Shown: positions 4,315 to 60,835 of the stretch, piece after piece | Layout of the letters: every line of letters begins with the position of its first letter | Position numbering within the stretch: the first letter of the stretch is position 1 | Assembly: GCA_017404665.1 (NCBI GenBank) | Contig: JAFRBX010000061.1 | Coordinates: 1-60,835, forward strand | Direction of reading: 5' to 3' | Origin: Ruminococcus sp. | Lineage (GTDB): Bacteria; Bacillota; Clostridia; Oscillospirales; Acutalibacteraceae | DNA length: 60,835 nt | The notes under the pieces: model-generated | The model's database searches: none | Seen by the model: the letters and a program-made list of their open reading frames with translations, nothing else | Told to the model about the DNA's origin: nothing | Made by a program: the position numbers and the translations under genes

Positions 4315-5085
4315 TCAGAATTTGCCGTTATCGTTCGCCCAAGTTTCCTTATCGGCGATGGTCTCCATCACATCCCAGTGCTCGGCGATCTTGCCGTTCT
4401 CAACACGGAACAGGTCATAGTAAGCAGTGGGAGTGCCGCCGAAAGTACCTTCAGATACCGCGAGACCGTAATTTGCGTCCGCAAGTACCATATAGGTCTT
4501 GTTGTAAATCATCTGAATGCCCTGCTCGGCGAGAGCCGCAAGAGCCTTGCCTAAGCCTGAGAGACCGTCAGCGATACCGGTGTTGTGCTGGATATAATTG
4601 TCGCCGTCGAAGTAATTGGTGATGTTATCGGGGTTCTCACCGCGGAGGATATCGCCTACGAAGTCAGCAACAACCTTGCGGGTCGCTTCTTTATCGGAGC
4701 CGTCCTTTTCGAGGGTGCCGTCTATCTGAGTATGGCGTGAGGGGTTCGGTTCAGCCTTGTCAGCAAGGTTGTCCCAATGCTCGGCAATCTTGCCGTCAGC
4801 GTCGAAGCGGAAGATATCGAACGCTACCTGCTCGCCTGCACCGGCGAAGTTGTAAACGGTCTGTAAGAATACCTTGTCGCCGTCCTCGAAGGCGCGGATG
4901 TTGTTGACAGTGGTCTTGACGGGAGCGGAAGCGAGATACTGTACCGAGCCGACAAAAGCGTCTCTGCCTGTGCCGTATGCGAGGTTGTGCTGGATGTAAC
5001 CCTCGGCGAGTAAGGACGCAGCCTTCTCTGTATCACCGGTTGCGAATGTGTTGATCAGTGCTAAAGCCTTTTCGATGTTTGTCAT
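4315..5085 (-). CDS. Tandem NTF2/SnoaL-like fold protein
   Basis: This 256-residue protein contains two consecutive NTF2-like (SnoaL) domains. Each half repeats the same landmarks: a YIQHN motif (about residues 30 and 165) and a late FR-x-(D/E)-x-GKIAEHWD motif (about residues 105 and 235). SnoaL-like proteins bind small hydrophobic molecules or act as isomerases/aldol-type enzymes; the actual activity here is not known. The internal duplication suggests a fused dimer. It has a strong Shine-Dalgarno (AGGAGG in reverse at 5093-5098) and is monocistronic. Confidence 0.8.
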   Translation of the reverse strand: MTNIEKALALINTFATGDTEKAASLLAEGYIQHNLAYGTGRDAFVGSVQYLASAPVKTTVNNIRAFEDGDKVFLQTVYNFAGAGEQVAFDIFRFDADGKIAEHWDNLADKAEPNPSRHTQIDGTLEKDGSDKEATRKVVADFVGDILRGENPDNITNYFDGDNYIQHNTGIADGLSGLGKALAALAEQGIQMIYNKTYMVLADANYGLAVSEGTFGGTPTAYYDLFRVENGKIAEHWDVMETIADKETWANDNGKF

Positions 5086-5735
5086 TTTTATTTCCTCCTA
5101 AATGTTGTTATGTTTATTCAGCTTTTCTCTTGCTGTGACTAAAGTATAGCCCATAACTGAGGATTTGAAAATGACCGAAAACTTGTAATGGGTACAATTT
5201 TATGTTGTGGCAGGAGCTATTAGATACATCCACAAGTAAACCCATTTGAAAGCGTTCACTATAATGCAGAGAATGATAATTGTCGAGAATCGCTAAAAGG
5301 TGATATTTTGGAAAGATACTATACAGAAAAAAGTGTCCCAACAGATTTGTTTAACCTCAGGTCAAATCTCGGCATGATCCTTTTGCAGAAGAAATGGCTT
5401 AAATACTGGCTTTTTGAGCATAGAACGCATTATTTGCCTGCATTTTTGATCAAAATTTCAAAAAGGTTGTGAAATTACCCTACCTCTCCAAAAAAATGCG
5501 ATACAGCTCAATTCTGGACGTTTTAGAGCTATTCTTCGCTACAGTTCCGGCTTTTCTAATAAAGCGCATACAAACAGCTACTAATTCTCACTTAATGCCC
5601 CCTAAATCAAACTGTAACGCCTAAACTACATAAGCCATAGATTTACCCTACCTATGGTTTTTCGAGCCCCTAAGGCCTCATAAATAGTGCATTTCTAATC
5701 CGAAAAGCGTTACATTTCAGCCATATTGACGCACA

Positions 5736-5763
5736 TAAAAAGAGCCGAGAAAATCTCGGCTCT
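5736..5763 (-). terminator. Intrinsic terminator, minus strand
   Basis: A ten-bp perfect stem, AGAGCCGAGA (5741-5750) with TCTCGGCTCT (5754-5763) and a 3-nt loop. On the minus strand it is followed by TTTTTATG, so it ends a transcript running leftwards from the structured region. Confidence 0.7.
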
Positions 5764-6060
5764 AATACGTTATGCTACTCTCGATTGTACTCTACTGTCC
5801 TTAACGACAATATACTTCCGAACTGTCGCCAAACAATTGTAAATATCAGCATAACCATATCTGTTTTGCATGAACTAAGTGATGATAGAGCTGTATAATA
5901 GAGCTGTGTTTTTTACATAGAAAAAACACTCTATCTACAACTTAGTTTTCACGCAAAAAGACACAGTTATCCCTTGGTAAATACTGTTACGCTGAATATT
6001 CAATTTACAATTGTTGGCTCTTTTATTTTACCATACCGCCATCCGTTAGGCAATCCAAAA
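5736..6060 (-). ncRNA. Candidate structured RNA
   Basis: On the minus strand, arms at 6018-6004 and 5843-5828 pair over 15-16 bases with one bulge (GCCAA-CAATTGTAAA). They continue into a second helix (5998-5986 with 5855-5844). Inside the loop, AACTAAGT...ACTTAGTT (5873-5947) and an AAAAAACAC hairpin (5906-5929) form further stems. The series ends at a perfect terminator (5763-5741) followed by TTTTTA. This nested folding with a terminator is what a regulatory RNA looks like. A degenerate palindromic mobile element is the main alternative. No Rfam family is recognised and no clear promoter was assigned. Confidence 0.35.
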
Positions 6061-7156: not shown

Positions 7157-7886
7157 GATCATCAAATTCGCGCAGGAGATCGCGCCTTTTGACACTGCAG
7201 CCGAATGGGATAACGTCGGCTTGCTGGTCGGCTCTCCCGACCGGGAGGTCGAGCGCGTTTTGCTGGCGCTGGATATCACGCCCGGCGTCGTCAATGAAGC
7301 GAAGGAACAGGGCGCGGAGCTGATCGTCAGCCATCATCCAGTCATCTTCTCTCCCCTGCACTCCCTGACGCCGGACAGCGCGGAATATCTGCTGGCAAAG
7401 CACGATATCGCGGCGCTGTGCCTGCACACCAACCTCGACCGCGCTCAGCAGGGCGTGAACACCGCTCTGGGAGCGGCTTTGGGACTGAAAAACACTGCAT
7501 TATATCCCGATGATTTTCTGCTGGTCGGCGACGCCGAACAGCCATGCTCCGCAGAGCGTTTCGCCGCTTTCATCAAGGAGCGTCTGCGCGCGCCGTCGGT
7601 ACGCTTTACCGCAGGTACGGTCAGCCGCGTCGCGGTATCCTCGGGAGGCGGCGGAGAAGGCGTAGGGCTCGCGAAAAAATACGGCTTTGACGCCTTTGTT
7701 ACGGGCGAGCTGAAGCATCATCAATACCTGTATGCACTGCAGCACGGGATCGCAGCCTTCGACGCGGGGCATTTTCCGACCGAGGATGTTGTCGTCAATC
7801 CGCTGAAAAAGCTGATGGAAGAACGCTTCCCCGCGATTGATTTCATCATCAGCGAAGCCTGCGGCTGTCCCTATCGTGAAGTGTAA
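7143..7886 (+). CDS. Nif3-like dinuclear metal centre protein
   Basis: At 247 residues this is a compact member of the Nif3/YqfO (GTP cyclohydrolase I type 2-like) family, which forms hexameric rings with a dinuclear metal site. Metal-ligand motifs are visible: SHHPVIF near residue 63, HTNLD near 97 and a late GHFPTED near residue 213. It lacks the middle PII-like insert of longer homologues. The biochemical function of the family is not settled. It ends the trmK operon and is followed by a repeat and a strong terminator. Confidence 0.9.
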   Translation: MNINEIIKFAQEIAPFDTAAEWDNVGLLVGSPDREVERVLLALDITPGVVNEAKEQGAELIVSHHPVIFSPLHSLTPDSAEYLLAKHDIAALCLHTNLDRAQQGVNTALGAALGLKNTALYPDDFLLVGDAEQPCSAERFAAFIKERLRAPSVRFTAGTVSRVAVSSGGGGEGVGLAKKYGFDAFVTGELKHHQYLYALQHGIAAFDAGHFPTEDVVVNPLKKLMEERFPAIDFIISEACGCPYREV

Positions 7887-7896
7887 ATACGGTTCA

Positions 7897-7944
7897 TTTC
7901 AACTGACCGTTAACTACTAACCACTGACCACTAATCACTAATCC
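7897..7944. repeat. ACTGACCACTAATCACTA-type array, copy 1
   Basis: Seven- to eight-base units of the type ACTGACC/ACTAATC/ACTAACC follow one another between nif3 and its terminator. Similar arrays occur at about 11130-11238, 33352-33393 and 33668-33715. Confidence 0.55.
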
Positions 7945-7978
7945 AAGCGTGTTCGCGATGAACACGCTTTCTTTTTTG
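7945..7978 (+). terminator. Terminator after nif3
   Basis: AAGCGTGTTC (7945-7954) pairs with GAACACGCTT (7960-7969) and is followed by TCTTTTTTG. Confidence 0.9.
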
Positions 7979-8081
7979 TCACAAAAGAATTATAGTTCTA
8001 TTACTATTTTAACAAAATGTAAATTTTGACTCGTTTTGACACGCAACGATAAAAAGTTTGCTATATATATGTAAAAAACAA

Positions 8082-8110
8082 TTGCAAAAACCACAAGGGT
8101 TTGTTATAAT
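8082..8110 (+). promoter_or_regulatory. Predicted promoter of trmB
   Basis: TTGCAA (8082-8087), 17-bp spacer, TATAAT (8105-8110). A leader of about 100 nt follows before the trmB start. The 333-bp gap between nif3 and trmB otherwise holds the repeat array and terminator. Confidence 0.7.
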
Positions 8111-8220
8111 ATTGTAGTGTTTATAACTATATCATGTGATAGTGTGGGGTATCGGGGGTTAAAAATGCCGCGCGTACCTTTCACCGACGCCGCGTGAAAC
8201 AGACAGGAATATGAAAATTC

Positions 8221-8880
8221 ATGAGAATCAGAAAAAAGAAATGGGCTGAGCCGGAGCTGGCGGAATGCCGCTACTATGTGAATGAGCCGGAACGCTTTCG
8301 CGGCAAATGGAAGGAATTTTTCGGCAATGATAAACCCACCCAACTGGAAATAGGCTGCGGCAAATGCACCTTTATCGCTCAGAAGGCACTGCGCAATCCC
8401 GGCGTCAACTATATCGCTGTCGATATCAAAAGCGATATGCTGGGCGTGGGGCGCAGGAACGTCGAGCGGATCTTTGCTCAAGCCGGCAGGGAAAGCCCCG
8501 ACAACGTCGCGCTGGTACGGTGCAACGTCGAACAGATCGACAGAGCGTTTTCCGCTGAGGACGGCATCGGAGTAATGTACATCAACTTCTGCAATCCGTG
8601 GCCTCGTTTGAAACACCGGAAGCGCCGCCTGACCTATCCGAAAAAGCTCAGGATGTACCGTGACTTTCTGACAAAGGACGCGGTCATCTACTTCAAGACC
8701 GATGATGACGAGCTGTTTGAGGACAGTGTCGGATACTTCAAAGAAACGGGCTATACCATCCGCTGCATCACCCGCGATCTGCACAACAGCGATATCAAAG
8801 GCAACATCGTCACCGAGCATGAACAGATGTTCACCGACGAGGGGATCCCGATCAAGTATCTGGAAGCGGTCTTATCGTAG
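8221..8880 (+). CDS. trmB: tRNA (guanine(46)-N7)-methyltransferase
   Basis: This 219-residue enzyme matches TrmB, which methylates G46 in the tRNA variable loop using SAM. LEIGCGKCTFIAQKA near residue 43 is the SAM site, and NFCNPWPRLKHRKRRL near residue 122 is the family's NFPDPWPKxRHxKRRL signature; the D-to-N and P-to-C differences there are tolerable but noticeable. Its TAG stop codon is formed by the first bases of a GTAGGGACGA repeat element. It has its own promoter. Confidence 0.92.
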   Translation: MRIRKKKWAEPELAECRYYVNEPERFRGKWKEFFGNDKPTQLEIGCGKCTFIAQKALRNPGVNYIAVDIKSDMLGVGRRNVERIFAQAGRESPDNVALVRCNVEQIDRAFSAEDGIGVMYINFCNPWPRLKHRKRRLTYPKKLRMYRDFLTKDAVIYFKTDDDELFEDSVGYFKETGYTIRCITRDLHNSDIKGNIVTEHEQMFTDEGIPIKYLEAVLS

Positions 8881-51472: not shown

Positions 51473-52972
51473 TCAGTCCTCCAATCGTGAATATGTTTTT
51501 GCTAAGTTTTTGAGCCTCTCGGCTAATTCTTTATTCAGAGCATCGTCCTTGATACGCCATACCCAGTTGCTGCCCAGCGTGGAGGGAACATTGATCCTCG
51601 CCTCGCTGCCCAGACCTAAGATATCCTGCATCTGAATGATCGCGTAATTCGCGATGCTTTTATATGCTGCTTCAATGAATTTCCAGTTGACCTCGTCGCC
51701 GTACTTCATGCCGACGTACTTCGCCATGTACTGATCGCAGTGCTCCTTCTCCCAGCCTTCCGCCAGAGCGTACCAGCCCAAGATGGTATCATTATCGTGG
51801 GTGCCGGTATATACGACGCAGTTCTCGGTATAGTTGTGCGGCAAAAAGTCGTTTTCATCATCGTCGGCAAAGGCGAATTCCAGCACCTTCATGCCCGGAT
51901 AGCCGCTCTCCTTGAGCAGCTCCTTGACGCTGTCGAACAACTCGCCCAAGTCTTCGGCGACGATCTGGATATCGCCCAGCGTCTCGCGCATCACATTGAA
52001 GAATTCGATGCCGGGACCGTCGATCCACTCGCCGTCGATGGCGTTCTCGGCGCCGAAGGGGATAGCGTAGTAGGTATCAAAGGCGCGGAAGTGGTCGATA
52101 CGGGTGATGTCGAACAGCTTGTCAGCAGCGGCGATGCGGCCCATCCACCACTTGAAGCCGGTTTCCTCGAGATAATCCCAGTCGTACAGCGGGTTGCCCC
52201 ACAGCTGACCGGTCTCAGAGAAATAATCGGGCGGACAGCCGGCGACACAGACGGGGTTGAGCTCCTCGTCCAGCCAGAACACCTCCGGATTCGCCCATGT
52301 GTCGGCGGAATCCATCGCGACGTAGATCGGCATATCGCCTAAGATCTTGATGCCGAGACCGTTGACGTAAGCGCGGAACTCCTCCCACTGCTTATAAAAC
52401 TCGAACTGGGTCCATTTCCAGAAGTCGATCTCCTTGCGGAACTTGCGGGTATAGTAGTTGACCGCCTTTTCTTCGCGGGTGCGGATCGCCGCGTCATCCC
52501 ACTCGGGCCACGCCTTGTTGCCGAAATACTTTTTGACCGCCATGTACAGGGCATAGTCCTTGATCCACTTCGAATTCTTTCTCTTAAAGGAGTTAAAGGC
52601 CCGCTGGTCGCCCTCCTTAAACTTTTCGTAAGCGATCTTCAGCACCTCAAAGCGGCTGAAGTAGATCGCGCCGTAGTCGATCTCCTCCGGGTTGTTGCCC
52701 CAGTAGAACTGTTCGATCTGCGCCTTGGTCAACAAGCCTTCCCCGATCAGCGTATCGAGGTCGATCATGTAGGGATTGCCCGCGTAGGTAGAAAAGCTCT
52801 GGTAGGGGCTGTCGCCGTAGCTGGTGGGACCGACCGGCAGGATCTGCCAGATCGACTGACCCGCGGCTTTCAGAAAGTCCGCGAACTTCCTCGCCTCTTT
52901 GCCTATGGTGCCGATTCCGTACGGCGACGGTAAAGAGGTGATGGGCATGAGCACACCGGAAACTCTTGCCAT
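51473..52972 (-). CDS. malQ: 4-alpha-glucanotransferase
   Basis: This 499-residue GH77 enzyme transfers maltodextrin chains. The N-terminal RVSGVLMPITSLPSPYGIG and PSPYQSFST-like block, DMPIYVAMDSADTW, RIDHFRAF (nucleophile region) and THDNDTILGW near residue 395 are conserved. It works with glgP to break down maltodextrins or glycogen. The start at 52972 has AGGAG eight bases upstream; an earlier in-frame ATG has none. It has no signal peptide, so acts in the cytoplasm. Confidence 0.96.
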   Translation of the reverse strand: MARVSGVLMPITSLPSPYGIGTIGKEARKFADFLKAAGQSIWQILPVGPTSYGDSPYQSFSTYAGNPYMIDLDTLIGEGLLTKAQIEQFYWGNNPEEIDYGAIYFSRFEVLKIAYEKFKEGDQRAFNSFKRKNSKWIKDYALYMAVKKYFGNKAWPEWDDAAIRTREEKAVNYYTRKFRKEIDFWKWTQFEFYKQWEEFRAYVNGLGIKILGDMPIYVAMDSADTWANPEVFWLDEELNPVCVAGCPPDYFSETGQLWGNPLYDWDYLEETGFKWWMGRIAAADKLFDITRIDHFRAFDTYYAIPFGAENAIDGEWIDGPGIEFFNVMRETLGDIQIVAEDLGELFDSVKELLKESGYPGMKVLEFAFADDDENDFLPHNYTENCVVYTGTHDNDTILGWYALAEGWEKEHCDQYMAKYVGMKYGDEVNWKFIEAAYKSIANYAIIQMQDILGLGSEARINVPSTLGSNWVWRIKDDALNKELAERLKNLAKTYSRLED

Positions 52973-53365
52973 AATCTCAACTCCTGTCATATTATAATGT
53001 ATCGGTATTGTCTATCTTGCACAGATACACACAGTGCTACCGACCCTATTCTTAAATAGTTTAACATACAGATAACCAAAATACAACCTTTTTTACAAAA
53101 AACCGCGACAAAATCGTAAAGAAAAATCAGCATAACATGTGACGCCGTCCGCCGCGGGTCAAACTGACCTATGGATCACTATTGCAAAACTTCGGAAAGG
53201 GCAGCAAAAGGAGGTATCGGAAAGGCTGACACGGACCGGCAGAAGGTCGGCAGGCGCAGCACATTGTTAACGGAAAACGAAATTCACACAGGGAAAAGCG
53301 TTTATTTCACTCTTTTTTGCCTTGCCTTTGTACAATATGCTGAAAAACAAGGCTTAAATTTTGGC

Positions 53366-53394
53366 TTGCCTGCTGAAGAACTGTATGATACAAT
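53366..53394 (+). promoter_or_regulatory. Predicted promoter of the dockerin-like gene leader
   Basis: TTGCCT (53366-53371), 17-bp spacer, TACAAT (53389-53394). Transcription would start near 53402, 185 nt before the gene. Confidence 0.55.
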
Positions 53395-53517
53395 AGTATG
53401 CGCGAATCCACCCCGTAACTTGAACGGCGTTGGTTTCGATTTTGTCAGTCTGAGCTGTAATAAAAAGCTGAAAGGCAGAACGCTTTTGCAGAGAGATGAA
53501 GCGTATTTCTATGCAAA

Positions 53518-53546
53518 ACAATTTGTAATATTTACAAATTGTTTTT
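53518..53546 (+). terminator. Intrinsic terminator inside the leader
   Basis: ACAATTTGTAA (53518-53528) pairs perfectly with TTACAAATTGT (53532-53542), followed by TTTTGTTG. It lies 40 bp upstream of the dockerin-like start, so it either attenuates that gene or ends a ~140-nt RNA. Upstream, TTTTGCA (about 53486-53492) can pair with TGCAAAA (about 53512-53518), overlapping the first arm. Confidence 0.65.
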
Positions 53547-53586
53547 GTTGGGGCTCAACATTTGCAAACACCAAGGAGGCAAAAGC

Positions 53587-53985
53587 ATGAAAAATCAAAC
53601 AAAAATCTTATCCGTACTGCTGGCGCTGGTAATGGCGCTGGGCGCATTCACCGCCGTACCGCTCGGCGCGTCCGCCGCGGGGGTCGATCCTGCCGTGGCA
53701 GGATCTGAGCAGTATATGAGCTTTGACGACCCCAACGGCAGTGTATATGTCTGGGAAAATGATCCGTCGGGATCACCCGGCGTCCTGTCCGTGATCACTC
53801 ACGTTTATTCCTTCCACCACAATCTCATACTGCCGACATATCTGGTAGATACTGAGCACGATCGTGACGGCGGCGATCGGTTTTACTTCGCCGACGTCGA
53901 TAAGAACGGACTGATCGAGATCATCGACGCGACATGGATCCAGCGCCACGCGGCAGGGATGGAGATCCCCTATACCATCGAATAA
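53587..53985 (+). CDS. Secreted protein with a single dockerin-like repeat
   Basis: This 132-residue protein has a signal peptide (KNQTK, hydrophobic LSVLLALVMALGAF, cleavage near ASAAG, residues 1-32). A ~70-residue middle is of unknown fold. The end reads FADVDKNGLIEIIDATWIQRH, which is the calcium-loop plus helix of a type I dockerin repeat. Normal dockerins carry two such repeats; this one has one. It may bind cohesin weakly or be a remnant; calcium binding is likely. Strong AAGGAGG site. Starch- or fibre-degrading ruminococci carry many such proteins. Confidence 0.7.
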   Translation: MKNQTKILSVLLALVMALGAFTAVPLGASAAGVDPAVAGSEQYMSFDDPNGSVYVWENDPSGSPGVLSVITHVYSFHHNLILPTYLVDTEHDRDGGDRFYFADVDKNGLIEIIDATWIQRHAAGMEIPYTIE

Positions 53986-54071
53986 ACCTGTCATATAATA
54001 TATCCGTTACTAAGAAAGCGTGCGCCTCATGCAGTTGTTCTTAACGGAGTAATTGCTGATGCGGGGCCACT

Positions 54072-54103
54072 GGAAGGCGAAAGCCTTCCGGTTTTTCTTT
54101 TTT
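54072..54103 (+). terminator. Terminator after the dockerin-like gene
   Basis: GGAAGGC (54072-54078), a GAAA loop, GCCTTCC (54083-54089), then TTTTTCTTTTTT. Confidence 0.85.
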
Positions 54104-54112
54104 ATGGCTTTG

Positions 54113-55744
54113 TTATGCGGGAATCGGGATATTGCTCTCTTCAGATGATTCAAGTTCTTCGTGAGTCGGAAAGCCTTCTCCGACCATGATTTTTGCATTT
54201 TCTTGAGGTGTCAGCTGATATTTATAATATATCATTACCGGATTCCCCTCGGTTCGGGAATATTTGGTTGGCTTCTCATAGACATCCACACGGTCAATGA
54301 AGGCGTGGAGCAGCTCTGCTGTCAGCTTCGGCATCTCAACGTATTCCTTTGCTTTAGCGATAAAGTCTTTGATCGCCTGCTGCTGTTTTGAGTAGAGCGT
54401 GAGGTCATTGTTGAGTTCGATCAGTTTCTTCTTTTGTTCTGCCAACTCTTCTTCATAACCCGCGACCATCTCGTCATAGCGTTCAGGGGTGATTCTGCCA
54501 ACCACTCGATCCTCATACAAACAACGGATGATACCGTCGATCTTCTTGATGCGTTCTTCAACGGAAGCCTTTTCCTGTATCGCTCTCCTTGCGATCTTAT
54601 CGGATTCCGATTTGCCTTTCTGCATTGCGATCTCATAGAACTTTTCAGGTTCGGATCTTGCAAACGAGGTGACCTTTCTCAGGTTTTCAAGAACGATCTG
54701 ATCGATCACGCTTTCCCTTATGTTGTGAACGGTACAGTTGTGTTTACCTGTTTGGTAACCGCCGCACTGGAACATATTCTTCTCGGGACTGATGGTCTTA
54801 CCTCTATGAAGATACATTCTCTTTCCGCAGTCACCGCAGTAGAGGTATCCGGCAAATTTATCCATTTCTCCCATCTTGTCAGGACGCTTACGACCGACAA
54901 AATGCTTTTGAACAGTCTCGAACAACATTCTGTCTACTATCGGTTCATGCGTATCCTTGAAGATCAGAACCTTTGTGGACTCGTTCTTCAGCCTTTTCTT
55001 CAGTTTGTTGGATTTGCTGTAGGTCTTGAAGTTCACCGTATCTCCGCAGTAGAACTGATTGCTGAGCATCCTTCTGACGGTTGTGATCGTCCAGCGATAT
55101 GGTTGAGACAGATTCGGATGGCTCGCTTTTGTTCCTGTCAGATGGAATAAGTATACGCCTGGAGCGGTGATTTTCTCTTCCTCAAAGGTAGCGCATATCC
55201 TTCTGATCCCAATGCCGGAAGCGTACATTTCGAAGATCCTTTTTACAATCGGCGCTGTCTGAGGATCGATTATCAGCCATGGGGCTTCCTTCTGATTACC
55301 TTTGTATTCGGGATTCTTTAGATAACCATAAGGCACCGTTGTTCCGACAGGCTCGCCGCGTTCACCTTTAGCTTTCTGCACCGCGCGGATCTTCTTGGAA
55401 GTGTCCGCCGCGTAGAAGTCATTAAAGTAGTTGCGGATGCCGGACATCTCGTTCAGTCCGTTGATGGTATCCACGCCGTCGTTCACGGCGATGAAGCGGA
55501 CGTCGTACTGAGGGAACACCAGCTCCATCATTGCATCGGTCTCGAGGTGGTCACGTCCGAGTCGGGATTGATCCTTGACGATGATCGTGCCGATCTTGCC
55601 TGCCTCCATATCTCGCTTCATCTGAACATACGCGGGACGAGTGTTATCGGTGCCGCTGTAGCCGTCGTCAATGTAGAAGCGGCAGTTATGAAGACCAAGC
55701 TGTTCAGCGTGTTTACTGAGGATGATCTTTTGAGACGAGTTTTG
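54113..55744 (-). pseudogene. Large serine recombinase, 5'-truncated
   Basis: The remaining ~543 codons carry most of a large serine recombinase: DDGYSGTDNTRP and KDQSRLGRDHLETDAMME of the catalytic domain, a recombinase domain (GTTVPYGYLKNPEYKG), a zinc-ribbon with YCGDCGKRMYLH and later Cys, and a coiled-coil end. The first intact ATG is at 55621, but the family alignment continues upstream in frame (QNSSQKIILSKHAEQLG) to a TGA at 55747-55745. The first ~25-30 codons, which hold the catalytic Ser of the YxRLS motif, are absent. It is therefore probably inactive. Its end meets the AT-rich island. Confidence 0.85.
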
Positions 55745-56046
55745 TCAAGGGTATTTTCTGAATTGTTAGTAGTTTTTTATCACGAACTCATTATTTGTCT
55801 GTTTTTTGCTTCCTTAAGCGCATGTTCACAACTTTGTATGCGTTTATTTGTGCGTTTTTCATAATTGAGATAATGTATTTTTTCTGTTTTGTTGCTTTGG
55901 TTTTATGGAAAAAGCGGACGAAACGTGTTACAATAAGTATAATATTCATAATTATTGTAAAATTTTGATTATCAATAGAAACAGGGCAGAACATATAAGA
56001 CGTCAGAATGTATAATCCAACAAGGTGTAGAGAGGAGGAACTATAG
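55745..56046. other. AT-rich junction between recombinase remnant and ABC-3C operon
   Basis: No gene is seen in this 302-bp stretch. Base composition drops sharply from the recombinase to the island. A possible promoter (TACAAT, 55928-55934, and TATAAT, 55938-55943) faces the ABC-3C genes; no good -35 is seen. The sequence ends with a GAGGAGG ribosome site. Confidence 0.5.
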
Positions 56047-57198
56047 TTGACAAAAGCTTTAAACGATGCTACGCTCACAAAAGCAGGAGATACTTTTCAG
56101 CATTTAATCGCATTAAAAGATTGCTTTGATATGGAGAGCGGAGAAACTTTGCAAATTGAAGTAAACGGAGACGTTAGCGTAATTAATAGCAAAGGAGGGC
56201 GTTTCCAGAAGGAAGTGAAACATCACTTCGATAATCAAACTTTGTCAGATCGAAGTATTGATTTTTGGAAAACGTTAGCTAACTGGTATGAAGATTATGA
56301 TAGAATCAAAGATTTTACTTACCTAATTCTATACACTACTGCATGTGTGGAGAAAACATCTTTTGATAATTGGAATAAAAAAACAAAAGAAGAGAAGCTA
56401 GTTATCATCCTTGAAATTGGAAAAGAAAACAAAAAATCAGAAGAGACTTTCAGAAAACAATATAATAGGATTTTTAATGCGAACTACAACAAAGAACGGT
56501 TATTAAATATTCTCGATAGATTTAGAATAGATTTTTCACAAACATCATTGGTTGGGATTTCAAATGATTTTGCAAAGCATATCGGTTACATTCCAACCGA
56601 AAACAGAGATGCTTATATCGGAGCTTTGCTTGGATTAATACAGATAAAAGTAAAAGATCCTCCACACAAATGGGAAGTTACAAGAGAAGAATTTGACGAG
56701 CTACTTCAATCCCAAACGGCTGCATATGCAACCAAAGGAATTGCCCCACTTCCTAATGAATTTGCAAAGACTGATGTTCCTTTAGCGGATATGCCGAGGC
56801 TCAAACAGAAAACGTTTGTTGCCGCTATCCGTGAAATAAAATATGATCAAATGATTCCATCTGCAATTTCAGATTATTGGAAAGCTGACACAACAATCGC
56901 CAAGTATTTTCGAGACAATATTATGTATTTACAAAGTCTTGATTCTTATATAGATAACTTGTCTGAACAAATGAGATATACAAAAGAAAAAAGTGAACTT
57001 GACGCTGAAGGGAAAACAGAAGCAGAACAGATCAAAGCATCAAAACATCTTTACAATGATATTATGCGTTGGGATGCAAAAGATTTTGGCTCAATCGTTC
57101 GTAACCAAGGATATTTTCAAAGAGGTGTCATACATAACATAGTAGATGAATCAGATTTTATTTGGAGAGTAGGTGGAGAAAAAGATGAGCATCAATAA
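56047..57198 (+). CDS. ABC-3C system protein with restriction-endonuclease-like N-terminal domain
   Basis: This 383-residue protein starts at TTG with GAGGAGG eight bases upstream. The N-terminal ~100 residues (AGDTFQHLIALKDCF...LQIEVNGDVSVI...QKEVKHHF...WKTLANW) look like a PD-(D/E)xK nuclease of the Cap4/DUF4297 type: Asp42, Glu56 and Lys58 are in the expected D...ExK order. The C-terminal ~200 residues should be the ABC-3C C-terminal domain that links effector to the ATPase; I recognise it from gene context more than from motifs. In such systems this is the predicted toxic effector. Codon use is AT-rich, unlike the flanking genome. It overlaps the next gene by 14 bp. Confidence 0.75.
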   Translation: MTKALNDATLTKAGDTFQHLIALKDCFDMESGETLQIEVNGDVSVINSKGGRFQKEVKHHFDNQTLSDRSIDFWKTLANWYEDYDRIKDFTYLILYTTACVEKTSFDNWNKKTKEEKLVIILEIGKENKKSEETFRKQYNRIFNANYNKERLLNILDRFRIDFSQTSLVGISNDFAKHIGYIPTENRDAYIGALLGLIQIKVKDPPHKWEVTREEFDELLQSQTAAYATKGIAPLPNEFAKTDVPLADMPRLKQKTFVAAIREIKYDQMIPSAISDYWKADTTIAKYFRDNIMYLQSLDSYIDNLSEQMRYTKEKSELDAEGKTEAEQIKASKHLYNDIMRWDAKDFGSIVRNQGYFQRGVIHNIVDESDFIWRVGGEKDEHQ

Positions 57199-57673
57199 TA
57201 TCAAAATACTATCTTTAAATCCGCATTTCTATTCTTTACTCATTCAAAACTTCTTATCAGGATACGGGAAGCCATGTGACATCAAATTATTATTCATGGC
57301 TATTCCGATTTTGATATATAAAGAATCACGAGAAAAACTTGTTAGAGCCAATAAGAAGAGCCGTATTGAAACATTATTTCAAGATTCTCAAACTATCGAA
57401 GATAGTAAAATATCTGGAAAAACGCGGTTGTCCGGTTATATTGATAGGTATAAAGCATTAATGCCTTATTGCAAAGAAGCGTTAATTATTTTATCCTCTG
57501 AAAGCAAAATAGCCATGCGTAATAAAAAATTAGTTGTTACAAAAAAAGATAAGTATGACAGACACGACGGAATAATAAAAGAGTGGACAAGATGCGCATA
57601 TTATCTTGGAGTCGTTTTCTCAAAGACAACAGAAGATCATTTGTCTTATTATTTAGGAGTTGATGCCGAATGA
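57185..57673 (+). CDS. ABC-3C middle component
   Basis: This 162-residue protein is probably the middle component (MC) of an ABC-three-component system. NPHFYSLLIQNFLSGYG (about 10-26), the LFMAIPILIY helix and the late YYLGVVFSKT block fit the family as I know it, and its place between effector and ATPase fits. The start at 57185 follows GGTGGAG; an upstream GTG is inside the effector gene. It overlaps both neighbours (14 bp and 4 bp), so the three are coupled. Confidence 0.75.
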   Translation: MSINNIKILSLNPHFYSLLIQNFLSGYGKPCDIKLLFMAIPILIYKESREKLVRANKKSRIETLFQDSQTIEDSKISGKTRLSGYIDRYKALMPYCKEALIILSSESKIAMRNKKLVVTKKDKYDRHDGIIKEWTRCAYYLGVVFSKTTEDHLSYYLGVDAE

Positions 57674-58245
57674 AAAGTTACATAAAAGCTATTGTCATTT
57701 TCAACCAAGACGGAGAAAAAAGGACAGTTCCGTTAGAAGCGGGCGTTAATATCATTACCGGAGAATCGAAGACCGGAAAAAGTGCATTGGTTGAGATAAT
57801 CGACTATTGTTTGTGTAGTGCTCGGTGCACGATACCAAAAGGGAAAATAACTGAGTTTTCTTACTTATACTCCCTAATAATGGTAATAGGTGAAAACTCA
57901 TATATAATTGCTCGCTATAATTGGGAGAATGGCGGAAAAATGTATTTTTCAAAAGAACCCATAGACTTTAATCCTGATTGTTTAGAATTAGGTTATTTCT
58001 CAGAGAAGCCGATACTACAATGCAAAGAAGCGAAAAGTGACATCGAATCTGTATTAGGTTTATTAGTAACAAATATGGTTACTGATGCTGACCAAAAGAG
58101 CAAGAAAGCTTCATTGAGAAATATGGTATCTTATATGTTTCAGCATCAAAATCTTATGGCAAGTAAGTTTGCTTTGTTTTATCGGTTCTCTGATTTTTAT
58201 AAAAGAAAGGATATAATAGATCAGTTTCCTGTTTTTGCAGAATGA
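57670..58245 (+). CDS. DUF3732 ABC ATPase, N-terminal part
   Basis: This 191-residue fragment has Walker A GESKTGKS (31-38) in the DUF3732 setting (INIITGESKTGKSALVEIIDYCL-like), then an ATPase N-lobe. Family members continue for about 450 more residues. The reading ends QFPVFAE-stop; the family continues FPVF-x-x-W and then the D/S-QEYY block that begins the next frame. A single missing base at 58241 (TG instead of TGG) explains the break. Alternatives are a sequencing error, or a working pair by ATGA-coupled reinitiation. Confidence 0.8.
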   Translation: MKSYIKAIVIFNQDGEKRTVPLEAGVNIITGESKTGKSALVEIIDYCLCSARCTIPKGKITEFSYLYSLIMVIGENSYIIARYNWENGGKMYFSKEPIDFNPDCLELGYFSEKPILQCKEAKSDIESVLGLLVTNMVTDADQKSKKASLRNMVSYMFQHQNLMASKFALFYRFSDFYKRKDIIDQFPVFAE

Positions 58246-59597
58246 TAAGCCAAGAATACTATAGCGATCTGATTCAGCTAAACAAACTAAAGAGCGATTT
58301 AAAGCAGCTGTATAAGAAACAAAAAGCAAACGAAAAAAGTAATTCTTATATTAGAGATAATTTATTACAGTTATTATCGGATTTTTTTGCCCTGCTTGAT
58401 CAGGAATTTGATGGCAGCGCTTCGGTTCAGGATATGCTAAAAACAGCATCTAATCTACCCGATTTTGATGATTCACAGCTTTTTGGTGAAGCTGGATTAG
58501 CAGAACATTATAGCTCATTACAAGCAGAATTAGAAGAATTAAGGGACAAAGATAGAGAAATTGTAATAAAAATAAAGAATCTAGAACAAACGTCAGATAA
58601 AGGTCACGACTTTCATGAAATGTTGAAGGAGTTGAAAGAAAAAACAGACGCATCAGAAATAACAACCAGCGAATACACTTGTCCTCTTTGCGGACACGAT
58701 TGCCAAAACTTATCTGAAAAAGATTTGGAAATAACTAAGGCATCGGAGTGGCTAGATAATGAATTAGCAATCACTGAGAAATATACTACTGATTTTTCTG
58801 AAGATATCAGAAAACTTAAAGAAGCACACTCGAATACAGAAAAGAGAATCCGAACTGTTTGGAAACAGATTAAAACCATTGAGGAAAAGTTCATTTCGTC
58901 AGAAACTCTTACTTCTAAACGGGCTAAGGTTAATTATGCTAAATCAAAAATTGCCTTGTATGCTGAAATGAACAGTGCCGGCCTTTTTGAAACAGTAGAT
59001 GAAGATATCGAGAGTCTCAAAGAAGAGATATCCAAACTAGACGAAAAGATTAAAGGCTTTGATGTTGAGAAGAAGATGCAAAAAGCGGAAGCATTTTTAT
59101 CAGAAAATATGAATCGCCTTGCATTAACTCTTGATTTTGAAGAAGAGTATAGACCCATTGATTTAAACTTTGGATTAACCGACGGTAGTTTCGATATTTA
59201 TCATCATCAGAATAATCGTGAAAAAATTCATTTATATGAAATGGGAAGCGGAGCAAATTGGGTTTCTTGTCATATTGCATTGTTTTTGAGCTTTCTTCGT
59301 TTCTTTGCAAAACAAGAGAAATCTCCAATGCCTTTAATTCTGTTTTTCGATCAACCCAGTCAGGTGTATTTCCCTCAGGGAGATGAAAATGAAAAAGAGG
59401 TTGCTCAAGCTGATTTAATCGCTGTCAATAAAATGTACACTACCATTTTTTGTGAAATAAAATCAATTGGGGAAGAAACGGGAACTCTCCCTCAAATCAT
59501 TATTGTTGATCATGTCGACGGCAAGAGGTTAGAGTGTAAAAAAGAGTTTGAGAGTTATATCAGATGCAACTGGAGAAACAATACTGGATTGATATAA
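58242..59597 (+). CDS. DUF3732 ABC ATPase, C-terminal part
   Basis: This 451-residue fragment begins MISQEYYSDLIQL, which continues the family right after the break. It has coiled-coil arms (~10-130 and ~170-290) around a CPLCGHDC motif (147-154) like a zinc hook, the ABC signature region EMGSGANWVSCHIALFLSF (333-351), and Walker B LILFFDQPSQVYFP (365-378). Together with the preceding frame it gives a ~640-residue Rad50/SMC-like ATPase, as in DUF3732 proteins. A strong terminator follows. Confidence 0.8.
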   Translation: MISQEYYSDLIQLNKLKSDLKQLYKKQKANEKSNSYIRDNLLQLLSDFFALLDQEFDGSASVQDMLKTASNLPDFDDSQLFGEAGLAEHYSSLQAELEELRDKDREIVIKIKNLEQTSDKGHDFHEMLKELKEKTDASEITTSEYTCPLCGHDCQNLSEKDLEITKASEWLDNELAITEKYTTDFSEDIRKLKEAHSNTEKRIRTVWKQIKTIEEKFISSETLTSKRAKVNYAKSKIALYAEMNSAGLFETVDEDIESLKEEISKLDEKIKGFDVEKKMQKAEAFLSENMNRLALTLDFEEEYRPIDLNFGLTDGSFDIYHHQNNREKIHLYEMGSGANWVSCHIALFLSFLRFFAKQEKSPMPLILFFDQPSQVYFPQGDENEKEVAQADLIAVNKMYTTIFCEIKSIGEETGTLPQIIIVDHVDGKRLECKKEFESYIRCNWRNNTGLI

Positions 59598-59604
59598 GTT
59601 ATAA

Positions 59605-59651
59605 AAAGCCACCAACAAAGTCCTCTTAAGTAGGATTTCGTCGGTGGCTTT
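59605..59651 (+). terminator. Terminator of the ABC-3C operon
   Basis: AAAGCCACC (59605-59613) pairs with GGTGGCTTT (59643-59651) with an inner partial stem. It lies 8 bp after the ATPase stop. Confidence 0.8.
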
Positions 59652-59812
59652 CAAATTGCTGGTCAAATAGTATGGTTTTCTTTTTCGATAAATGTATAGT
59701 TTCCTTTTGGGATTTGTCAAAGGTATTCTCTACCAAATATACTTTTTCCTTTCTTTGAAAAACTTACAAAAGGACAAAAAGCATTTTTGGGGGAGTAATA
59801 TATCTAAAAGTA

Positions 59813-59841
59813 TTGCCAACAATTCTTTTTTGTGGTATCAT
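59813..59841 (+). promoter_or_regulatory. Predicted promoter of the hairpin RNA
   Basis: TTGCCA (59813-59818), 17-bp spacer, TATCAT (59836-59841). Its start site would be at about 59848, the first base of the hairpin below. Confidence 0.5.
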
Positions 59842-59846
59842 TAACT

Positions 59847-60060
59847 TGCGACACAAAATTAAATTAAGTCCATATTCAGAAGTTTGTATTTTTATCCTTG
59901 GTAAAAATGCAGGCTCTTATATCTCATACTTCTGTATATGGATAGAAATTTTGTGTCGCAGCAAAGGGCGATGTCCTTAGCGGAAAAAACAAGAATCGAA
60001 TAGGATATACAAAGCCTTCAGAATCTATCGCTGTCGATAATTCTGAAGGCTTAGTTTTTA
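59847..60060 (+). ncRNA. Candidate noncoding RNA with long 5' hairpin
   Basis: TGCGACACAAAATT (59847-59860) pairs with AATTTTGTGTCGCA (59947-59960), and inside it TCCATATTCAGAAGT (59869-59883) pairs with ACTTCTGTATATGGA (59928-59942, one mismatch). About 50 nt later a strong terminator follows. With the promoter just upstream this forms a ~210-nt unit between the ABC-3C operon and the DUF4143 gene. A MITE carrying a terminator is the other reading. No coding frame is convincing. No Rfam family is recognised. Confidence 0.4.
60012..60060 (+). terminator. Terminator ending the hairpin RNA
   Basis: AAGCCTTCAGAAT (60012-60024) pairs with ATTCTGAAGGCTT (60040-60052), with inner ATCG/CGAT, followed by TTTTTA on the plus strand. 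It is convergent with the DUF4143 gene. Confidence 0.85.
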
Positions 60061-60142
60061 TGATCTGCTTTTAACAGACAAATAGTCAATCGTTTATCCT
60101 TGAAAAAACGATGCATTTGCTTTTGTCGGACAAATAACGGAT

Positions 60143-60835
60143 TTATTGATCCAACAGCCAGTTGACTACATTCAAGGACTCTATCCCTTCAAATTCATTT
60201 TCTAAGCCGGTATCGGTTGAGAGAATGATTTTTTTATAGTTATCACGAATCTTTCGCAGCGGCGTCAGCTCGCGTTCTCTGACCGTTTCGCTGCGCATTG
60301 ACTCGGTAATTTGGAAATATATCTTTTCGTTCGCGTTCACAGCGATAAAATCGATCTCGCTGTTGCCTGCTTTACCGATCGCAACGTCATATCCGCGTCT
60401 GAGCAGTTCAAGATAGACGACGTTCTCCAGAATATGCCCGCTGTCACGGTCACGGTAGCCTAACAGATAGTTGCGTAATCCAATATCGACGACATAATAT
60501 TTTCCGAGAGTTCTCAGATATTCCTTCCCCTTGATATCAAAGCGCTTGACCTCATAGAAAAAATACGCTTCCAGCAGCGCGTCGACATACGCCTGCACGG
60601 TGTGAGAGCTCGGAACGGTCTTCCGTCCGTCATTCAGTAAGCCTTCATTGACCAGTACGTTTCCGATCGATGAAACTGAAATATTGCTCCCGATATTATC
60701 CGCAAGAAACAGAATGATTTTTCTCAGCAGTACCGCGTCGGTGATCTGTCTTTGTCCTCTGCGCTTCTCGCGTTCCAGAATATCCCTGACGACTACGGTA
60801 GAATAGATACCGTCCAGCAGCGTCAACGCACGCTC
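60143..60835 (-). CDS. DUF4143 AAA-type ATPase, C-terminal part, cut by window end
   Basis: The visible ~230 residues are the C-terminal DUF4143 domain of an AAA_14 ATPase (YYVVDIGLRNYLLGYRD, ILENVVYLELLRRGYDV, SEIDFIAV, YFQITES), where the last part is restriction-endonuclease-like (E...EIDF..Q). The N-terminal P-loop ATPase domain lies right of the window, so the gene is partial and has no real start here; frames are open to 60835. Such proteins are common, of unclear function, and often sit in accessory regions. Confidence 0.85.
   Translation of the reverse strand, partial: ERALTLLDGIYSTVVVRDILEREKRRGQRQITDAVLLRKIILFLADNIGSNISVSSIGNVLVNEGLLNDGRKTVPSSHTVQAYVDALLEAYFFYEVKRFDIKGKEYLRTLGKYYVVDIGLRNYLLGYRDRDSGHILENVVYLELLRRGYDVAIGKAGNSEIDFIAVNANEKIYFQITESMRSETVRERELTPLRKIRDNYKKIILSTDTGLENEFEGIESLNVVNWLLDQ

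Follow-up and report, generated by a model that had tools for sequence, protein, structure and literature searches.

The AT-rich right end of a 60,835-nt stretch of Ruminococcus sp. DNA (contig JAFRBX010000061.1 of assembly GCA_017404665.1; the whole stretch is called the window here) raises the question of what conflict system is encoded at 56047-59597, how many genes it has, and whether it could still work. An earlier note, made from the letters alone, had described an ABC-3C system of 'three to four coupled genes' with a nuclease-like effector. In all probability the region is a Lamassu (type II, ABC-3C) operon with the gene order LmuA-LmuC-LmuB, in which the LmuB frame is interrupted and which is probably inactive, unless the interruption is an assembly error. 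The operon is a member of an already known, experimentally tested kind of defence system, and is ordinary except for the break in LmuB.

All genes of the operon lie on the forward strand. The effector, LmuA (56047-57198, 383 aa), matched the PADLOC LmuA model (3.1e-44) and by alignment carries an N-terminal Cap4-like nuclease-type domain (E38, D42, E/Q56, K58), while its C-terminal residues 257-373 matched CTD7 (PF20283; Pfam 2.7e-8, above the cut-off), the ABC-3C C-terminal domain expected of it. The middle component, LmuC (57173-57673; 166 aa from GTG 57173 or 162 aa from ATG 57185), matched Pfam MC3 (PF20131, 1.3e-15) and PADLOC LmuC (8.5e-12). Two open reading frames (ORFs) follow, 57670-58245 (191 aa) and 58242-59597 (451 aa); the second carries DUF3732 (PF12532, E 1e-46), which bears out the Rad50-like ATPase of the earlier note. 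The ORFs were where it had placed them, with overlaps of 14 bp between LmuA and LmuC, counting LmuC from ATG 57185 (26 bp from GTG 57173), and of 4 bp between LmuC and LmuB (57670-57673). Its trio of effector, middle component and ATPase is thus matched by Pfam (CTD7, MC3, DUF3732) and by PADLOC (LmuA/LmuC/LmuB) alike. The features of type II Lamassu and ABC-3C systems were all found: a DUF3732 SMC/Rad50-like LmuB, LmuC, an LmuA with the ABC-3C C-terminal domain, and A-C-B linkage in relatives. The break in LmuB is the sole difference from ABC-3C systems, and the window assembly lacks the unbroken LmuB frame of a working Lamassu.

Comparison with solved structures pointed to the same class. 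An LmuB profile built from relatives and both window parts matched chain A of 9hqu at 5.5e-56 (positions 5-616 of 642), and the second part alone at 1.1e-23; profiles of LmuA and LmuC matched other 9hqu chains weakly (0.0088 and 0.078). The solved Lamassu type II / DdmABC complexes (9hqu and 9hqx, in which a chain is named LmuC) share with the window operon the gene order, the middle component, and an effector with an ABC-3C C-terminal domain and a nuclease-type N-terminal domain, and the zinc hook and DQPSQ Walker B of the window's SMC-like DUF3732 protein are both visible in 9hqu too. The window differs in its LmuA and LmuC, which are distant by these profile matches, and in its broken LmuB frame. 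Other structures with DUF3732 chains, such as 9ny5 and 9uxh, are taken to be Lamassu. Passages of two reviews treat ABC-3C, Lamassu and DdmABC as one superfamily with experimental work (PMC10586767 / PMC12409362), and the description 'mostly untested' in the earlier note is outdated.

The number of genes is settled by LmuB. One PADLOC LmuB model (PDLC03859, 611 positions) spans both ORFs, its positions 1-180 matching the first and 185-604 the second, and LmuB is a single 642-aa frame in two same-genus genomes, G033 (96% identity to the window over the second part) and G039 (90%). As 57670-58245 and 58242-59597 encode the N- and C-terminal parts of a single LmuB, the operon has three genes, and the fourth of the earlier count is half of LmuB. 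The 4-bp overlaps do resemble those of coupled genes, as would be expected if the four ORFs were separate genes of a different conflict system, but that reading has next to no chance of being right and was rejected, given that the two ORFs align with neighbouring stretches of a single profile and that relatives carry one gene in their place. The frame change was placed at 58238-58245 by tblastn, alignment and comparison with relatives: the two parts are read by tblastn in two frames that meet at about 58238, and the sole length difference from G033, the closest relative found, inside the three genes is one position, also at about 58238. Six of seven intact relatives have the start Met of the second ORF as an internal Met, and the seventh has Ile there, so the 4-bp ATGA overlap of the LmuB halves is not an evolved gene junction. 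The break falls after Walker A (57760-57783) and the Q-loop (58141-58152), and before the zinc hook CPLCG (58680-58694), the signature (59238-59261), the Walker B/D-loop DQPSQ (59334-59363) and the H-loop (59499-59516). The earlier note overlooked the broken frame, and with it the possibility that the window copy may be inactive.

Could LmuB nevertheless be made whole, or is the break only apparent? A programmed -1 frameshift is unlikely, as no slippery heptamer was seen by eye and seven of eight relatives are unbroken. It is also very unlikely that LmuB works as two chains, an N-lobe from the first ORF and a coiled coil plus C-lobe from the second, the latter made by stop-restart at ATGA and pairing with the former like ABC heads. 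The N-lobe motifs and the coiled coil do fall on opposite sides of the break, a point at which division of an ABC head is possible in principle, and the Rad50 head has reportedly been studied as two co-expressed parts. The second ATG, however, lacks a ribosome-binding site (+0.4 kcal/mol, against -12.0 for LmuA, -6.4 for LmuC and -6.8 for the first part of LmuB) and derives from an internal Met codon, and among the eight relatives LmuB is one chain in seven and a stump in one, none with the window's split. A distinct possibility, if not a probable one, is a sequencing or assembly error in a genome that carries a normal, working Lamassu operon. A single break without other decay and with signs of constraint, in an operon whose LmuA and LmuC frames are open, fits such an error, as does a run of five T about five bases upstream, but the alignment places the break outside this run, and ORF tiling showed the contig to consist mostly of long ORFs. 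Certain observations weigh against an inactive copy. Both LmuB parts are free of other stops or length differences and do not look decayed, and in the C-part the window branch has 11 nonsynonymous and 9 synonymous changes (by an equal-rate count, P 0.008 against no constraint), which is not different from the G033 branch with 7 and 15 (Fisher 0.21). In addition, PMC12409362 mentions, with advice to be cautious, a study in which protection against phage VIB04 persisted in truncated ddmABC mutants. Since there is no further decay and constraint is visible on the window branch, the break is either recent or an error; if it is real, the window's Lamassu copy may be inactive.

What would be lost can be gauged from studies of related systems. 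Window evidence covers gene content and order, family, motifs, the frame break and the intact relatives, while sensing, release and cutting are taken from reviews. By analogy, LmuB (SMC/Rad50-like) together with LmuC would sense abnormal phage or plasmid DNA, such as hairpins or ends; sensing would free the LmuA effector; and freed LmuA would form a tetramer and cut DNA, stopping the infected cell. The effector here would combine a Cap4-like domain, presumably nucleolytic, with the CTD7 docking domain. In the review passages, LmuB is the likely sensor, every Lamassu component was essential wherever tested, and cited preprints have liberated LmuA forming a tetramer that activates the Cap4 nuclease (PMC10586767 / PMC12409362); a passage of a further source lists hairpin and DNA-end sensing (PMC12904381). 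The ATPase-gated DNA cleavage guessed at in the earlier note corresponds to the mechanism class reported for relatives. With the N-lobe (Walker A, Q-loop) separated from the coiled coil, zinc hook, signature and Walker B, the sensor is probably not whole. Given this sensor role and the need for every component wherever tested, an inactive copy is predicted; unless the assembly is at fault, the window copy has probably lost its function.

LmuA is likely a nuclease of the Cap4 kind, as judged from its residues. Among 13 aligned LmuA (without L010, and including five distant LmuA picked from search matches), down to 18% identity, Q18, E38, D42 and K58 are invariant, while position 56 is variable (E in nine, Q in three, S in one). 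The residues D42, E56 and K58 of the earlier note are all present in the window protein, though the middle one varies in the family. The conserved D ... [E/Q]-x-K of a Cap4-type nuclease was found in this set, and the D-x13-[E/Q]-x-K pattern of the window protein aligns with relatives of which three matched Pfam Cap4_nuclease (PF14130) below the cut-off. In the profile match to the 9hqu effector, D42 stands opposite D, position 56 opposite Q and K58 opposite K; the 9hqx effector is the same over the stretch shown except that the lysine opposite K58 reads A, which we infer to be an engineered catalytic mutant. Passages of the reviews place the Cap4 nuclease in CBASS (cyclic oligonucleotide-based antiphage signalling systems) and in many Lamassu (PMC10586767 / PMC12409362). 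The assignment is weakened by the low significance of the 9hqu match (E 0.0088) and by the printed alignment with the second solved effector, 9ny1 (E 0.19), which shows I opposite K58, so that 9ny1 has no bearing on this residue. It is weakened too by the Pfam searches, in which Cap4_nuclease was not matched by window LmuA at E up to 1, nor by four of seven other LmuA scanned, the remaining three, all distant, matching at 0.0017, 0.034 and 0.07.

Relatives keep the operon together. LmuA is followed by LmuC in eight of eight, and then by an intact LmuB in seven, which rules out homologues that occur only as unlinked single genes, one of two outcomes that would have told against the earlier note. 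The close loci number nine, the window plus L009-L016, with L009 and L010 taken as the same records as G033 and G039. LmuB is broken in two of the nine, the window and L016 (Flintibacter muris, 7623-8730); in the latter, LmuA and LmuC are open, LmuB homology ends at residue 55, and the region beyond carries a NikA/MobC mobilisation gene. Scans of chosen flanking ORFs found defence genes near four of the eight relative loci: AbiEii on L007 (the contig of L009), a SIR2-like gene and an 'Effector Endonuclease' match on L008 (the contig of L010), RloA/RloB or AbiL at L014, and a type I restriction-modification system at L015. The operon is AT-rich in the relatives' hosts too (30.3-36.9% GC).

LmuB was found in three of 198 relatives and six of 394 genomes of the order (own genome included, E up to 1e-20), and LmuA in two of 391 genomes of the class (own included, E up to 1e-10); near relatives of LmuA are mostly from Clostridia, according to record titles. 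Plasmid records yielded LmuB relatives in 85 and LmuA relatives in 18, all below 60% identity. Among plasmids, the middle component is annotated as two overlapping genes in one from Methylosinus (L048, 4649-5138), and one from Rhizobium (L050, 5128-6618) has a short DUF3732 gene of 496 codons. No LmuB relatives were found in a viral contig collection, and a phage search returned one unannotated and unverified record. This record (L049, 3896-7622), filed as an unverified phage from human faeces, holds relatives of LmuA and LmuB with a small ORF between them, and is perhaps bacterial DNA.

The AT-rich island of the earlier note is borne out: GC content is 34.1% over 56047-59597 and 53.4% over 1-54000, where the lowest value among 100 segments of 3551 b (starts 1-49,501) was 43.6%; the lowest 1-kb segment left of 54 kb had 37.4% (5001-6000). 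Homology to the window extends over 55737-59779 in G033 and only 56033-59600 in G039, so little flanking DNA moves with the operon. A large serine recombinase gene on the reverse strand (54113-55733; Pfam Recombinase and Zn_ribbon_recom) is cut at the left edge of the island and lacks its first ~31 residues, the part that holds the catalytic serine; an intact relative is present in G041. The edge is marked by a motif, TTGTCAAGGGTATTTTCT (55742-55759, forward strand), that is common to the G033 Lamassu cassette and has a second copy on the same strand downstream of LmuB (59714-59731), the motif having been defined from these two copies. A third copy in the window's genome (G000:C55:183717) adjoins another cut recombinase.

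Within one mismatch, the motif occurs at 30 places in 120 genus genomes (own included), against 9 for a reversed control. Of the 29 places examined, recombinase homology begins right at the motif in six, at residue 31-32 of the intact relative (window, G000:C55, G117, G034, G012 and G103), and the five other recombinases are 33-61% identical to that of the window. The places with cut recombinases, records L061, L064, L070 and L071 among them, include several near contig ends. At a further motif place, G114:C5, there is only a 28-aa recombinase trace (E 3.7). The G033 Lamassu begins at this motif too, at a site that is not a recombinase gene, and the motif was not found at the G039 Lamassu. An orphan N-terminal recombinase piece (G000:C15; L094 / L096 5530-5660) stops close to that codon. 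The sequence after it resembles the motif in inverted orientation relative to the gene, a likeness noted by eye and outside 3 mismatches; an open search with this sequence gave no second copy within 3 mismatches. A recombinase of the putative element's own was not found. The pattern is suggestive of mobile elements of one family that insert into recombinase genes. It is a speculative and rather doubtful extension that Lamassu rides an integrative element whose end is placed site-specifically within the large serine recombinase genes of rivals, always at one codon, directly behind the segment with the catalytic serine.

Other features flank the operon. To its right are a perfect 14-bp inverted repeat, TGCGACACAAAATT, with copies 86 nt apart (59847-59960) and resembling a miniature inverted-repeat transposable element, a segment (59951-60013) of which pieces recur in four other contigs of the genome at 84-92%, and a DUF4143 protein gene (60143-60835; PADLOC candidate PDC-S01, 1.9e-75) truncated where the contig stops; L016 likewise has a DUF4143 gene next to its Lamassu remnant. 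To the left, 53539-53985 encodes a small protein, the DNA end of which recurs elsewhere in the genome at 76-80%; Pfam found nothing in it, but its end looks dockerin-like. Rfam gave no matches over 52000-60835, and promoter and terminator scans showed no excess over shuffled sequences (16 against 16.3, and 2 against 2.2).

The locus is a further Lamassu, one whose Cap4-like effector is divergent, and the correction from four genes to three, one of them broken, illustrates an annotation trap. A real break would make the window one of two cases of LmuB loss in nine close loci, as would fit defence genes that are costly or disposable. The movement of such cassettes could be explained by the edge motif and, should Lamassu indeed travel by insertion into rival recombinase genes, one insertion would both bring a defence system and disable the resident element's recombinase.

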